A stretch of 21,509 nucleotides of DNA from a virus. Made by a program: the position numbers and the translations under genes. The stretch is taken from positions 1-21,509 of the IMG/VR virus record IMGVR_UViG_3300028837_003789; one strand, 5' to 3'. The notes beneath the pieces are model-generated. The model did no database searches, was not told the DNA's origin, and saw only the letters and a list, made by a program, of their open reading frames with translations. Below, one piece after another: positions 2,276-20,470 of this stretch; position 1 is the stretch's first letter; every line of letters begins with the position of its first letter.

Positions 2276-3316
2276 ATGAAACAGTTGGTCAAGCCCACAA
2301 TCAGCATCAGTACGCTTTGTATGAAGTATCTGGCAGTCAACAAAACGATCGAGCAATCAACCGCAGAGTTAACCGGAAGGGCGTTTCGGCATCTTAAAGC
2401 AGCAGTTGGAAACGTCGGCATGGATAAATTCAGCTATGAATTCGCCGAGCGGTTCCAGGCCTGGCTTATCGAAACCGGAAGGAACAAGGTCACAGCGAAT
2501 ATTTATGTCAAGGCAATAAAGCCGGTCTTTAACTGGGCTAAACGACACGAGTGCATTGAATCGAACCCCTTTGATGGTCTGAAGCTTTTCAAAATTCCCA
2601 AAAAAAGAATACGTCGATTTGAACCCTGGGAGTTTCAGGCTATTTTTGACAACTGCCCCAATATTCTCTGGCGAGCAAGAGTTCTGCTTGGCAAGCTAAG
2701 TTTACGACGTGGCGAAGTTCTCAATTTGACGGTGGATGATATAGATTTTAGTAGAGAAGTGATTTATATCTCGCCGAAGGAAGATACAGCTCATACCTGG
2801 CAATGGCACCCGAAAAATAAAAACCTCGGCTGGTTGCCATTGATACCGGAGCTTAACAAATTACTTGTTGATTTAATGGTAGAGCTGCCGGATGGTCAGC
2901 CGTATCTGCTTCTAAGACCACAAAGGTATTGGCGGGTTTTAGAAATGAAAAGAAGGGGACGGTTGCTTGATAGAGTTGCAAAATGTCCGGACAATAATTT
3001 CGACAGAGAATTCAAAAGGATACTTAAGCGTGCAGGTGTAAAGAACGGAAGTTTTCACGATTTAAGAAAAACAGCGATTACAGAATGGGCGGAGTATCTA
3101 CAGCCTGCTGAGCTGCAGGAAATTGCAAGACATGCTAATCTTGAAACCACAATGACATATTATGTTGCGGTTCATCAGCAATCGTTACTTCGCAAAGCAC
3201 GTCAGGTAAGTATGAATTGTTTAGGAGGTGACGGAGGCCCCGGCCGAAGTCGGAACCCCCGCACCTATGAAACATTCAGTCTCGGGGCGACAGGACTTGA
3301 ACCTGCGACCTCGTGA
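2276..3316 (+). CDS. int: Tyrosine recombinase (phage integrase)
   Basis: Site-specific recombinase of 346 residues, the usual size. Residues 10-95 form the SAM-like core-binding domain and 115-305 the catalytic domain. Visible catalytic residues are Arg144 (LSLRRGEVL), His261 and Arg264 (HDLRKT), His286 (ARHANLETT) and the Tyr nucleophile at 295 or 296 (MTYYV). ATG 2276 follows the Shine-Dalgarno AAGGAGGT. The last residues, GATGLEPATS, are not part of the fold. They are encoded by the reverse complement of a tRNA-Pro 3' half, so the gene runs into its own attachment site. This layout ties the enzyme to integration into a host tRNA-Pro(GGG) gene. Confidence 0.95.
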   Translation: MKQLVKPTISISTLCMKYLAVNKTIEQSTAELTGRAFRHLKAAVGNVGMDKFSYEFAERFQAWLIETGRNKVTANIYVKAIKPVFNWAKRHECIESNPFDGLKLFKIPKKRIRRFEPWEFQAIFDNCPNILWRARVLLGKLSLRRGEVLNLTVDDIDFSREVIYISPKEDTAHTWQWHPKNKNLGWLPLIPELNKLLVDLMVELPDGQPYLLLRPQRYWRVLEMKRRGRLLDRVAKCPDNNFDREFKRILKRAGVKNGSFHDLRKTAITEWAEYLQPAELQEIARHANLETTMTYYVAVHQQSLLRKARQVSMNCLGGDGGPGRSRNPRTYETFSLGATGLEPATS

Positions 3317-3328
3317 CCCCCAGTCATG
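3282..3328 (-). other. Candidate attP core: 3' half of tRNA-Pro(GGG)
   Basis: Read on the minus strand, 3328 to 3282 gives the anticodon arm (catga, loop ctggggg, tcacg), a 5-base variable loop, a complete T-arm (loop ttcaagt), the 3' acceptor strand cgccccg and discriminator A. The anticodon GGG, the G after it and position 72 = G (partner of the unusual C1 of tRNA-Pro) identify tRNA-Pro(GGG). The D-arm and 5' acceptor strand are absent: the bases beyond 3328 do not form them. A tRNA 3' half abutting the integrase is the standard att core. An intact tRNA would mark attL; its absence here, with phage genes on both sides, suggests attP. Confidence 0.8.
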
Positions 3329-3362
3329 AGGTCCTTAAAAATCGTTGGAAACAACCGCAAGC

Positions 3363-3386
3363 CATCATATTTATAAGACATCATAT
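3363..3386 (+). repeat. CATCATAT direct repeat beside attP
   Basis: CATCATAT occurs at 3363-3370 and 3379-3386, 16 bases apart start to start, within an AT-rich stretch 35-60 bases from the tRNA-Pro fragment. Short direct repeats in this position can be arm-type sites bound by integrase or an accessory factor. The assignment is tentative. Confidence 0.25.
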
Positions 3387-3421
3387 CTATCACCAATTCT
3401 AAATAGCAAATAACTGTTTCA

Positions 3422-3468
3422 AGTCAGCGGGCACCTCCACTTATTCCGGCTGAAAATTCCCGCTGACT
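3422..3468. repeat. Perfect 10-bp inverted repeat
   Basis: AGTCAGCGGG (3422-3431) and CCCGCTGACT (3459-3468) are perfect reverse complements around a 27-base centre. There is no T-run, so it is not a classic terminator. It lies between attP and the tRNA pair and could be a protein site or a folded leader of the tRNA transcript. Confidence 0.5.
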
Positions 3469-3487
3469 GGCATTCTAAACTCCTCCG

Positions 3488-3522
3488 AAGCCAGATTCTG
3501 TTGTTTTGGAATCTGGCTTTAT
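3488..3522 (+). terminator. Terminator-like hairpin before the tRNA pair
   Basis: An 11-bp perfect stem, AAGCCAGATTC (3488-3498) with GAATCTGGCTT (3509-3519), has a 10-base loop and is followed by TAT. The last stem bases plus the tail give a short T-rich end. It would stop transcription coming from the integrase. It ends only 4 bases before the first tRNA, so it could instead be part of the tRNA precursor 5' leader. Confidence 0.45.
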
Positions 3523-3523
3523 T

Positions 3524-3593
3524 GGGGCAGTAGCTCAGGCTGGTAGAGCGTTGGGAAACCCAGAGGTCGCAGGTTCGAACCCTGCCTGCTCCA
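3524..3593 (+). tRNA. Alanine-type tRNA-like gene with a 3-nt anticodon loop
   Basis: All arms but one are canonical: acceptor GGGGCAG/CTGCTCC (3524-3530, 3586-3592), D-stem GCTC/GAGC with G18G19, T-stem GCAGG/CCTGC with loop TTCGAAC, a 5-base variable loop and discriminator A3593. The acceptor contains a G3:U70 wobble (3526 with 3590) and A73, the known identity elements of alanyl-tRNA synthetase, and its first five pairs equal those of E. coli tRNA-Ala and tmRNA. The anticodon arm is 13 bases instead of 17: stem TTGGG/CCCAG closes a loop of only AAA, so no anticodon can be presented. CCA is not encoded. It may be a degenerate tRNA or a charged, non-decoding tRNA. The next tRNA starts 17 bases later. 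Confidence 0.6.
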
Positions 3594-3610
3594 TTTTGAA
3601 AAGTGAATAT

Positions 3611-3683
3611 CGCGGGGTAGAGCAGTTGGTAGCTCATCTGGCCCATAACCAGAAGGTCGCTGGTTCGAATCCAGCCCCCGCTA
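3611..3683 (+). tRNA. Initiator-type tRNA-Met (CAT)
   Basis: A full cloverleaf fits: acceptor 3611-3617 with 3676-3682, D-stem GAGC/GCTC, anticodon stem TCTGG/CCAGA with loop CCCATAA, T-arm GCTGG/CCAGC with loop TTCGAAT, and A73 at 3683. Bases 1 and 72 are C and T and cannot pair, and the D-stem has A11:U24. Both mark bacterial initiator tRNA rather than elongator. Two departures from the norm are visible. The 29:41 pair is U:A, so only two of the usual three G:C pairs above the loop remain, and position 33 is C instead of U. No CCA is encoded. It lies inside the phage, next to the alanine-type tRNA-like gene. Confidence 0.85.
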
Positions 3684-3784
3684 TTTGGGCCCCGTGCCAG
3701 GGAATGGCGTTGTTACGGCAGCGGGCGGAACAGGGAGAAATTCCAAACCGCCCAGCTGCAATTTTGAAAATTAAAAAGTGAAAA

Positions 3785-4310: not shown

Positions 4311-4787
4311 ATGAGGATAATTAAAACAATAGGGGCGGTCCTGCTGGCCGTACTGTGCTGTCCGGAGACGTTTTGCGATGGCGCTGTCCGGGTCCAGGTC
4401 GATGATATCAACGATGCCAGGCTGATGGTGGAGCTGCCGGTCATTCTGAAGGCTGCGCATCGCAACGACTGCCATGGCCCAAACCTACTTATTTTACTGG
4501 CGATACGCAAAGCGGAGAACGGCCAGCCGGGCCTGGAGTTCGGAATAAAACATCCGAAATGCCTCGCACAAATTGAGGCTGAGCCGGCCAAGTCGCTTGA
4601 TATACAGGCCGGGTGGGCAGCGGCAACTATCGTCAAAAACAAACGAAGATGGATAAGAAGCAATAGTGAAAATGATTTTATCGAGTTTTTAGGCAATCGG
4701 TACTGCCCGAAAGAGACCGACCCGGAAGGTAACAAAAACTGGAAACGAAACGTGCGATACTTTTATAATAAATTCAAAAGGGAATGA
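4311..4787 (+). CDS. Secreted lysozyme/transglycosylase-like protein
   Basis: Encodes 158 residues. Residues 1-23 look like a signal peptide (MRIIK, hydrophobic run, CCPETFCDG). The mature part has LLILLAIRKAENGQPGLEFG (about residues 60-79), in which the Glu in AIRKAENG sits where lysozyme-fold enzymes and lytic transglycosylases place their catalytic acid. It also has the ending FIEFLGNRYCPKE and NWKRNVRYFYNKF, typical of the closing helices of such domains. It would act on peptidoglycan after export, either as an endolysin-like lysis factor or as an early or lysogenic cell-wall enzyme. The call rests on motif resemblance, and the catalytic role of that Glu is unproved. Shine-Dalgarno is GAGG, close to the preceding stop. 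Confidence 0.55.
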   Translation: MRIIKTIGAVLLAVLCCPETFCDGAVRVQVDDINDARLMVELPVILKAAHRNDCHGPNLLILLAIRKAENGQPGLEFGIKHPKCLAQIEAEPAKSLDIQAGWAAATIVKNKRRWIRSNSENDFIEFLGNRYCPKETDPEGNKNWKRNVRYFYNKFKRE

Positions 4788-5051: not shown

Positions 5052-5477
5052 ATGTACAAGAAAAAGCCAATCTTTTTAACGGATGGCAAGGGCAGTATTT
5101 ACAAAATCGAGAAACTGATCAAGGCGGCAAAACTGAAAAATCTTGAGACAGGCGAATCTGTCACCGCCGAAATCGTCGGCAGCAGCATAACTGGATTTGC
5201 AGTAATAAATATGCCGAAGATAGAGGGCAACGATATTGATCAGCCGAAAACTGCCATCGCTGCTCAAAAAGACAAGAAGTCGAGAAAAACCAAAAGAGGC
5301 AAATCGTCACAGTATTACGGGGTCGCTGCGGCAAGAGGAAAGAAACCGTGGCGTACGAGTATATGGCTTGATGGCAAAAATGTTTCAACAGGAACTTACG
5401 AAACGGAGATTGATGCGGCCAGGGCCGTAGATGCCGAGCTGGAGAAAAAAGGCAAGCCGAAGCGAAATTTTCCGTAG
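5052..5477 (+). CDS. AP2-domain DNA-binding protein
   Basis: Encodes 141 residues from ATG 5052, which has AAGGAG 6 bases upstream; an upstream in-frame TTG (5037) is less likely. Residues about 85-141 match the AP2/ERF fold: SSQYYGV, KPWRTSIWLDGK, then GTYETEIDAARAVD and a final RNFP. The YGV, W, G-T-x-x-T-E-x-x-AA and NF positions are the conserved ones. In phages AP2 modules usually sit at the end of HNH homing endonucleases or integrases. Here no nuclease motif is present, and the N-terminal 60 residues (FLTDGKGSIYKIEKLIKAAK) are of unknown type. It probably binds DNA as a stand-alone regulator or accessory factor. Confidence 0.75.
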   Translation: MYKKKPIFLTDGKGSIYKIEKLIKAAKLKNLETGESVTAEIVGSSITGFAVINMPKIEGNDIDQPKTAIAAQKDKKSRKTKRGKSSQYYGVAAARGKKPWRTSIWLDGKNVSTGTYETEIDAARAVDAELEKKGKPKRNFP

Positions 5478-5494: not shown

Positions 5495-5817
5495 ATTGCA
5501 TTACCGACGGGACCGGATATTGATGAGCAGATAAAAAATCTGAAAGAAGAAGATGTAATTAGTAGATTTGTCATTTCTGGGCGGTCCAGGGCGATGATAG
5601 AGAGCTGGTCGGATGGGAGAGACTGCCGGACAAGCCGCATACCATCGGGCCGGACAGATGCACACATTGTCCATACAAACGGCAGGCAATAAAACAAAAA
5701 GCGGAACAGCCTGCCCTGGCGAGGTTGGCGGTAAGTGAAGCGGGCAGTATTTTGGTGAAATACCGGCAGCGCCGGAAAAATCAAACAAAAGGACAGATGG
5801 CATTAGCGTTTGGATAG
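5495..5817 (+). pseudogene. Small gene with AUU start and apparent frameshift
   Basis: Two overlapping open frames with coding-like composition fill this gap, and neither has a normal start. The first begins at ATT 5495, four or five bases after a strong AAGAGGAAGG, and reads ALPTGPDIDEQIKNLKEED before continuing to TAA 5690-5692. The second is open from 5566 to TAG 5815-5817 and has no ATG, GTG or TTG until late. It contains a CTHCPYKRQ motif and ends KGQMALAFG. Joining them needs one -1 shift between about 5566 and 5600. No slippery heptamer is visible there. It may be a sequencing error, a decayed gene or two tiny genes. Function unknown; the Cys pair hints at metal binding. Confidence 0.4.
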
Positions 5818-18113: not shown

Positions 18114-20024
18114 ATGAGAAATAGAAAATTTACAATACCCAAGCCGCTGCCGCTTCAGCCGGAGGAGCTGGATGTTCTCAGCCCTCGAAAAAGACTGACC
18201 GTCTCGGAAAGCGCGCTGCAGCGGCGTATACTTTCCAAAAAGACCTCGCGATACAGCGGCCCATGGTCGCACGATTATACACCATGGGCGGTCGAGATTA
18301 TGGATGCCCTATCAGATGTCGGGACACGACAGGTTACGGTAATGAAATGCGCACAGAGCTGCGGGACGGAAATCGGCCTGAATTTCTTAGACTGGATAAT
18401 CGAAGAAAAACCCGGGCCGACAGGCCTGTTCATGCCGCGCGAAGATGATTTAAACAGGCGCGTCAATACGAGAATCATACCGATGTTTCAGGAAATGCCG
18501 TCACTGAGGGCACATATACCAGGTGGAAAAATAGAAGATATAAATATCGGCAAGGAGACGGTCCTGGACAATATGATAATGTTCATCGGCTGGGCGGGAA
18601 GCGCAGCGGCAATGGCGGACGTTGCCCTCTGTTATGCGATTGTCGATGAAGTAGGAAAGTTTCGACCCAAAACCGGCAGGGAAGCTGACCCCATCAGCTT
18701 GATAAAGGACAGGCTGATTACTTATTTCTCGGAATCAAAGTTATACTGCCCATCAACGCCGGTCAAGGAAAACGATCTCATAGACCGCGAGTTCAGAGCG
18801 GGCAGTAAAGAAAAGTTGTGGTTTAAGTGCCCATTCTGCGGCGAGTTTCATAGACACGCATGGGCAAACGTGCAGCTCGATAAGGATAAAAACGGGGACC
18901 TGCTCGATTCAAAAACATACGAAACCGGAGGGCATGCCAGATACGTATGCCCATCCTGTAAAAAAAGCTGGACGGAAAAAGACCGCTGGCAGGCGGTATC
19001 GGACGGCCGATGGGCGCCGGACGGCTGCACAGTCGGCAAGTCGGGCAGGATCATCGGCAGGGTACCTGTAACAACGCACAGGAGCTTCCGTGTGTCGGCC
19101 ATGATGCTTTACCCGGGATTTATGACAATGGACAGGATGGCGGCGAAATGGGCGGATGCGCAGGTTTATAAGAAAATGGGCGACATTGGCCCGCTGCAGG
19201 ACTTTATCAATTCGTATCTCGGAGAGCCGTTCGAGGAAAGAGAGAAAGAGACCGAAGAGAGCAGACTTGTCGGTCATATCGGCAGCCACAAGCCGGAGAT
19301 TATCCCGAAAGGCGTGCAGCTGATTACCGGCGGCTTCGATGTCCAATTAGACCATGTATGGTTCAGTATACTCGGATGGGGCTATATGTCGGAGGTATGG
19401 AGTATTACCGAAGGCCGGTTAGAGACCGGCGATACGAGCCTGCTGGAAAATTATAAGCTTCTCGAAGAGCTGTTAGAGATGCAATGGCCGCTGGCGGATG
19501 ATGAGCAGCATAAGGGAGTAATCTACCGCGCTGCCATAGACTGCAACTACCGTCCGGATGTGGTTTTTGATTTCTGTATTCGTCATTCGGATACGATAGT
19601 GCCGGTCCGGGGTGATGATTCGGTAAAAAGCAAGATCTACAGGGCGGTGAGACTCACCGGAGGGCGATTGATACGTTATGACCTTAATACGAACGCCATA
19701 AAGGACAGGCTGTACCGGCTGCTTTACGAGTCGGTAACACCCGGGCCCGGGTACTTTCACCTGCACGCGGAAACTACGGGTGAAACGCTTGAGCACCTGG
19801 CCAGTGAAGAGCAGAGAAAAAGAAAGGTCGGCAGGCACTTCGAAATGGCATGGTTCCAGAAACCACACAAGCCAAACCACCTCTGGGACTGCGATGTATA
19901 TGCCACCTTTGCAGCCGAATTAGCGGGAGTGAGGATGCTCAGGGACCCAGCGCAAAAAAAGGCTGCGCCGAAGCGGGCGCAGATAGAAAGAAAAGGAACG
20001 AGGAAAATCAGGACCAAATACTGA
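18114..20024 (+). CDS. Terminase large subunit, GpA family
   Basis: Encodes 636 residues, close to lambda gpA (641). The ATPase domain has the variant Walker A KCAQSCGTE (78-86) and Walker B AIVDEVGKF (175-183). Two CxxC pairs (Cys239/242 and Cys279/282) form a zinc ribbon. The nuclease domain has the acidic residues Asp409 (GGFDVQ), Asp476 (AAIDCN) and Asp592/594 (LWDCDVY). It cuts phage DNA at cos, powers packaging and binds the portal. The start at ATG 18114 is 4 bases after the preceding stop. Order and type point to a cos-packaging, lambda-like phage. Confidence 0.96.
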   Translation: MRNRKFTIPKPLPLQPEELDVLSPRKRLTVSESALQRRILSKKTSRYSGPWSHDYTPWAVEIMDALSDVGTRQVTVMKCAQSCGTEIGLNFLDWIIEEKPGPTGLFMPREDDLNRRVNTRIIPMFQEMPSLRAHIPGGKIEDINIGKETVLDNMIMFIGWAGSAAAMADVALCYAIVDEVGKFRPKTGREADPISLIKDRLITYFSESKLYCPSTPVKENDLIDREFRAGSKEKLWFKCPFCGEFHRHAWANVQLDKDKNGDLLDSKTYETGGHARYVCPSCKKSWTEKDRWQAVSDGRWAPDGCTVGKSGRIIGRVPVTTHRSFRVSAMMLYPGFMTMDRMAAKWADAQVYKKMGDIGPLQDFINSYLGEPFEEREKETEESRLVGHIGSHKPEIIPKGVQLITGGFDVQLDHVWFSILGWGYMSEVWSITEGRLETGDTSLLENYKLLEELLEMQWPLADDEQHKGVIYRAAIDCNYRPDVVFDFCIRHSDTIVPVRGDDSVKSKIYRAVRLTGGRLIRYDLNTNAIKDRLYRLLYESVTPGPGYFHLHAETTGETLEHLASEEQRKRKVGRHFEMAWFQKPHKPNHLWDCDVYATFAAELAGVRMLRDPAQKKAAPKRAQIERKGTRKIRTKY

Positions 20025-20035
20025 AAGGATTCATT

Positions 20036-20470
20036 ATGTCAAAGCAGAAAGAAGAAAAAACGGCGGCCACAAAGAACACAAAGAGTGCAGAGGCGCCACA
20101 GGATGACCAGCCAGCCACAAAGACGCCACAGGTCGATGACAAGGTCGATAAGCAGGTCGATGACAAGGTCGATAAGCCGGTCGATGACAAGGTCGATAAG
20201 CCGGTCGATGACAAGGTCGATAAGCCGGTCGATGACAAAGTCGATAAGCCGGTCGATGACAAAGTCGATAAGCCGGTCGATGACAAAGTCGATAAGCCGG
20301 CTGGGAAAAAGAAAAAGAAAATCAGATACGCCTTCCCAACGGTCAGCCGGTGTCCGCGATGCAAAACAACCGATACGGTGGCATATAGGACGGCTAAAAA
20401 TATTCAATACCGCCGTTGTTTGCGGGCGATTTGCCGCTGGTCATACTCTGTTCGGGGCAAAAAAGTGTAG
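20036..20470 (+). CDS. Repeat-rich acidic/basic protein with C-terminal zinc finger
   Basis: Encodes 144 residues from ATG 20036, with AAAGGA about 6 bases upstream. Residues 1-32 are hydrophilic; residues 33-88 consist of seven copies of the 8-residue unit VDDKVDK(P/Q). A Lys run follows, then a zinc-finger-like C-terminus: RCPRCKTTDT with a later RRCLRAICRW. The repeat is likely an extended charged spacer. It has no counterpart in lambda, where the gpW gene follows the large terminase. It may tether the zinc finger to DNA or to the terminase. The unit and alternative frames over it have no homologue that I recognise. Confidence 0.75.
   Translation: MSKQKEEKTAATKNTKSAEAPQDDQPATKTPQVDDKVDKQVDDKVDKPVDDKVDKPVDDKVDKPVDDKVDKPVDDKVDKPVDDKVDKPAGKKKKKIRYAFPTVSRCPRCKTTDTVAYRTAKNIQYRRCLRAICRWSYSVRGKKV
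20132..20299 (+). repeat. Seven tandem 24-bp repeats
   Basis: Seven in-frame copies of a 24-base unit encode VDDKVDKP (the first copy ends in Q). Copies 1-4 have Lys codon AAG at one position and copies 5-7 have AAA, so copies differ in blocks. That pattern suggests unequal expansion rather than point drift. Confidence 0.95.

Follow-up and report, generated by a model that had tools for sequence, protein, structure and literature searches.

A phage tRNA gene with a three-base anticodon loop beside attP is probably a decayed cargo tRNA

What is a tRNA gene without an anticodon doing in a phage genome? The window analysed here, a 21.5-kb IMG/VR virus record (21,509 nucleotides), carries one such gene (Table 1), originally predicted to be an alanine-identity tRNA that could be charged and yet not decode. 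The covariance-model folding proposed with that prediction matched RF00005 across the whole gene (cmscan/Infernal, 54.3 bits, E 2.2e-9, zero broken pairs), above the gathering cut-off of 29 bits, which bears out the claim of a normal tRNA body outside the anticodon arm. The RNA reads GGGGCAG UA GCUC AGGCUGGUA GAGC G UUGGG AAA CCCAG AGGUC GCAGG UUCGAAC CCUGC CUGCUCC A, with all four stems paired. Nothing is unusual about the D stem (GCUC/GAGC), the T stem (GCAGG/CCUGC) or the T loop (UUCGAAC). The acceptor pairs from 1-72 to 7-66 are G-C, G-C, G-U, G-C, C-G, A-U and G-C, followed by A73, so that the predicted G3:U70 and A73 are indeed present. The anticodon arm, UUGGG-AAA-CCCAG, has 13 nt where 17 are usual; its perfect 5-bp stem, with U27:G43 as the one G:U pair, is closed by AAA as described, and the predicted fold recovers both stem and triloop.

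Table 1. Coordinates of features around the short-loop tRNA gene in the window
Feature	Position	Strand	Evidence or remark
Tyrosine-type integrase	2276..3316	+	Pfam PF00589 and PF13102; last codons overlap att core
attP core, 3' half of host tRNA-Pro(GGG)	3282..3326	-	MAG tRNA matches, G074 prophage
Perfect 11-bp inverted repeat	3488..3519	.	Just 5' of the short-loop tRNA gene; kept in L211
tRNA-like gene, AAA 3-nt anticodon loop, Ala-type acceptor, no CCA	3524..3593	+	Infernal and fold prediction
Initiator tRNA-Met, phage copy of host type	3611..3683	+	cmscan 63 bits; ARAGORN
Conserved phage protein, marker for finding syntenic relatives	4311..4787	+	Homologue search

The three bases AAA stand in place of the 7-nt anticodon loop, and U33 and the anticodon are missing. 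Since there is no anticodon, it follows that the RNA would be unable to decode, as had been claimed. A73 is followed by TTT in the gene; CCA is not encoded and would thus need to be added to the RNA. ARAGORN missed the gene and reported only the tRNA-Met (at 3610-3684) in the window, so such tRNAs may be under-recorded. Exact copies of the anticodon arm were found in neither viral_contigs nor genome_contigs, and a search for near-identical tRNA bodies returned two tRNA-Lys genes with normal loops on other phage contigs.

The window is from a temperate phage of Sedimentisphaerales (Planctomycetota). Pfam searches of ten ORFs identified, along with the integrase, a C5 cytosine methylase, a D12-class adenine methylase, a radical-SAM protein, a ParB-like protein and a GpA-type terminase. 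Related integrases adjoin tRNA-Pro(GGG) in five Sedimentisphaerales loci, and several genomes of this order have, beside that tRNA, integrases 41-47% identical to that of the window; the same query against viral_contigs gave one distant match. The 38-nt central part of the att core is identical in 10 MAG contigs, each time inside a full tRNA-Pro(GGG), and nine of these contigs are titled Planctomycetota, Phycisphaerae or Sedimentisphaerales (one is titled ‘uncultured bacterium’). The core had no match in viral_contigs. A syntenic prophage on contig 28 of genome G074 has the core at both ends, one of which also carries the integrase and a complete tRNA-Pro. In the window, phage DNA continues beyond the core and the 5' half of tRNA-Pro is missing, so the record shows attP, the unintegrated form. 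The short-loop tRNA lies 197 bases beyond the core, next to the phage initiator tRNA-Met. Possible integrase arm sites lie close to the core (3359-3390 and 3422-3468), in the form of two 16-nt direct repeats and a 10-bp inverted repeat. In one Sedimentisphaerales genome a group II intron match lies close to a related integrase (L119, 1035-1269), and a window ORF at 19850-20470 repeats an 8-residue KPVDDKVD-type motif about eight times.

The neighbouring tRNA-Met matches initiator tRNAs of Sedimentisphaerales. It has a C1xU72 mismatch and the anticodon loop CCCAUAA, in which C33 replaces U33. C33 is common to the initiator tRNAs of Sedimentisphaerales host loci L031-L035, L039 and L044, and those of L116 and L127 differ, with UUCAUAA or CUCAUAA loops. 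Derivation of the short-loop tRNA from an initiator tRNA was rejected, as its D stem is the opposite (GCUC/GAGC versus GAGC/GCUC). The inverted repeat just upstream is preceded by CTCCTCC in both the window (3478-3519) and the relative L211 (206-257). Viewed on the minus strand, it may be a hairpin before a GGAGGAG Shine-Dalgarno-like motif and a short reading frame; viewed on the plus strand, it may be a terminator.

The marker protein retrieved seven viral and four bacterial loci, all of them distant relatives, about 50-65% identical in that protein. L211 is syntenic with the window: a 225-bp alignment (E 3e-17) runs from the upstream hairpin through the whole of tRNA-Met, with 38/44 aligned bases identical in the hairpin segment (86%) and 59/71 in tRNA-Met (83%). 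In the slot of the short-loop tRNA, 42/65 bases match, a modest excess over shuffled sequences, 13/500 of which did as well, and cmscan found no tRNA there at E<0.5. In the initiator tRNA-Met of L211 (345-418), the T loop is 5 nt long (UUCGA) and the D loop is enlarged. The more distant L214 encodes a tRNA between integrase and marker protein that is 82% identical to the short-loop tRNA over 71 columns. Its anticodon arm has 19 nt, its anticodon stem a U28xU42 mismatch, and its acceptor end is frayed (A1xC72, G2:U71, G3:C70, C73), with neither G3:U70 nor A73. Pair 31-39 of the anticodon stem is G-C in the window and C-G in L214, both sides having changed. Also in L214 are a Leu-like tRNA with extra internal sequence (5643-5775), whose acceptor and T arm are common to an adjoining Phe-like tRNA, and a short acceptor-plus-T-arm piece with a weak tmRNA match (5201-5249). 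L209 retains only a T-arm remnant. No tRNA was found in the covered part of the corresponding interval of G074, G103, G110, G129, the viral contig G002, L210 or L213, the contigs of G002 and L213 starting inside the interval and covering it partly. In the G032 prophage, an initiator tRNA-Met is encoded elsewhere.

Among the relatives examined, at about 50-65% marker identity, the short loop is thus not conserved, and the same holds for the Ala-type acceptor. The conservation of the short loop in related phages, put forward as a check on the original prediction, was not observed. A normal 7-base loop in such phages, named there as contrary evidence, was not strictly found either: the slot in L211 is tRNA-less, and the loop of L214 has nine bases, or seven if its arm is paired in a shifted register.

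The intact stem had been taken to argue mildly against decay. A pattern search for tRNAs whose anticodon arm is four bases too short identified 57 viral contigs. With the copy in the window these gave 51 distinct sequences, of which 31 (30 from viral contigs and the window's own) have at least 6 acceptor pairs and 4 T-stem pairs. As a null, random 4-nt deletions were applied to 26 normal-length arms, and about 30% of them left at least 5 anticodon-stem pairs. A stem of at least 5 bp occurs in 10/31 short-arm tRNAs versus 9.1 expected (p=0.43), and one of at least 4 bp in 19/31 versus 18.3 expected (p=0.48). In this small sample (n=31), the stems are no better preserved than by chance deletion. 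The intact stem is therefore weak evidence against decay and the earlier argument fails. Short-arm tRNAs as a class with preserved stems were likewise rejected, as the null explains them, although a functional minority may exist within so small a sample. The same scan of 161 Sedimentisphaerales genomes gave one match, which lacks a good anticodon stem.

The acceptor end is of the alanine type. Listed bacterial determinants of alanine identity are A73, G2-C71, G3:U70, G4-C69 and G20, and alanyl-tRNA synthetase (AlaRS) recognition lies mainly in the acceptor stem; a plant tRNA-Phe given G3:U70 becomes a substrate of AlaRS (PMC9976931). Like bacterial tRNA-Ala, the short-loop tRNA has A73, G1-C72, G2-C71, G3:U70 and G4-C69; unlike it, the RNA has no anticodon, a 13-nt anticodon arm and U in place of the minor determinant G20, the base after G18G19 in the D loop. 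Its best full-length match among the 161 Sedimentisphaerales genomes is a tRNA-Ala(GGC), with 58/70 bases identical. Charging with alanine is plausible as predicted from the acceptor stem, because that is the part AlaRS reads. We found nothing in the window or in the examined relatives that points to a use for the charged RNA.

Given these analyses, we suggest that the gene is probably a recently inactivated, degenerate cargo tRNA, that is, a tRNA pseudogene, of a Sedimentisphaerales temperate phage. Among the options of the original prediction, decay is the one we prefer: the form is not conserved and chance deletion explains the stem. Beside attP, the phage lineage would carry a small tRNA cluster that changes fast. 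In one tRNA of this cluster four bases may have been deleted, the simplest source being a 7-base loop with AAA at its end, so that the anticodon stem is now closed by AAA. The RNA is perhaps still made, folded and charged, would be unable to decode and is probably a passive leftover. Two marks of a pseudogene are present, the loss of the decoding feature and a form not conserved in the (distant) relatives, and the L211 tRNA-Met with its 5-nt T loop counts as a second misshapen tRNA at this locus. With every other part of the tRNA intact, the loss probably happened recently in this lineage; we infer both this recency and the absence of selection for the short form. Phe-like CUGAAAA (from L214) and Trp-like CUCCAAA (from L211) were considered as ancestral loops, and both give AAA on losing four bases, so the loop does not fix the ancestor isotype. 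Against decay, the paired stems with no second lesion imply either a very recent loss or a body under selection, the acceptor keeps the main Ala determinants, which drift need not yield, and pair 31-39 differs on both sides between the window and L214.

A rival reading is a functional alanine tRNA that takes no part in decoding; AlaRS would charge it through G3:U70, and it would serve as a donor outside the ribosome or as acceptor-end bait for an enzyme or toxin. The determinants, the dominance of the acceptor stem in AlaRS recognition, the intact stems and the tRNA-Ala match in the host all agree with such an RNA, and we nevertheless consider it unlikely. G20 is missing, the tRNA is absent or deformed in every examined relative, and its closest positional homologue (L214) has G3:C70 and C73. 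None of the ten window ORFs encodes an aminoacyl-tRNA-using enzyme by Pfam scan, and no promoter-like site was found nearby on the plus strand, which is weak evidence. The donor or decoy role originally proposed is thus unsupported, and its variant as a decoy for anticodon nucleases was rejected as implausible, the RNA having no anticodon to cut. Quite improbable is the broader idea that dedicated alanine-charged, non-decoding tRNAs are selected for a minimal loop, the short-loop tRNAs of unrelated phages being further instances.

Another view concerns the origin of the tRNA pair. In mycobacteriophages, tRNA-dependent lysogeny is documented (PMC10865867), and the pair could be its relic, a cargo near attP that once replaced a host tRNA broken by integration, which as an account of this locus we hold to be very improbable. 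The second half of this reading, in which the cargo became dispensable once the integrase used tRNA-Pro with a long core, seems to us just as improbable. Like those phages, the window has a temperate-phage tRNA gene and a tyrosine integrase using a host tRNA gene, and related integrases adjoin initiator-type tRNA-Met genes in L116 and L127. The core is not short and non-restoring: at 45 nt it is long, spans the whole 3' half and restores tRNA-Pro, of which a full copy is present at the integrase end in G074, and therefore no replacement is needed now. The att site is Pro(GGG) whereas the cargo is Met plus an Ala-type tRNA, with no Pro cargo, and no relative was found whose att site is a tRNA-Ala or tRNA-Phe gene and whose cargo tRNA matches it. 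Such a relic is a plausible origin for cargo tRNAs in phages of this sort; it would account for origin and not for current function. Finally, a sequencing or assembly error may have dropped four bases from a normal tRNA, as the sequence comes from a single metagenomic record with no exact match elsewhere. We regard this as highly improbable, given that the site has no long homopolymer or tandem repeat, that tRNAs short by the same four bases occur in other viral contigs, and that the L214 homologue is abnormal too.

tRNA pseudogenes have been reported in T4-like phages (PMC1524935) and in XacN1 (PMC5852040). The gene studied here is similarly a phage-borne, defective tRNA with a better-formed tRNA adjoining, and differs in that its lesion is limited to the anticodon loop, the remainder scoring as a good tRNA. 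Phage tRNAs that evade host nucleases through anticodon-loop mutations (PMC10264068) also have an altered loop; those keep the anticodon, which is gone here, so protected decoding is impossible. We found no report of anticodon-less phage tRNAs in the open-licence literature. Were it functional, this RNA would be a tRNA reserved for tasks other than translation; in its present state, the gene chiefly illustrates the gain and loss of phage cargo tRNAs beside attP. It also calls for caution: many random small deletions leave a perfect anticodon stem closed by a tiny loop, so this shape should not be taken for a sign of selection.

Comparable tRNAs occur at other loci. Those of the phage contigs L151, L177, L203, L189 and L201 have complete acceptor and T stems, 5-bp anticodon stems and 3-4-base loops, and the L189 and L201 copies sit in tRNA arrays. 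In the viral contigs L180, L153 and L166, the 3' parts of the tRNAs are nearly identical; the loop is Met-type or altered, four bases are again missing, and the parse used gives only a 2-bp anticodon stem. In L004 (7384-7596), a four-base-short tRNA is followed by a 134-nt tRNA that ARAGORN calls tRNA-Arg with an internal insert.
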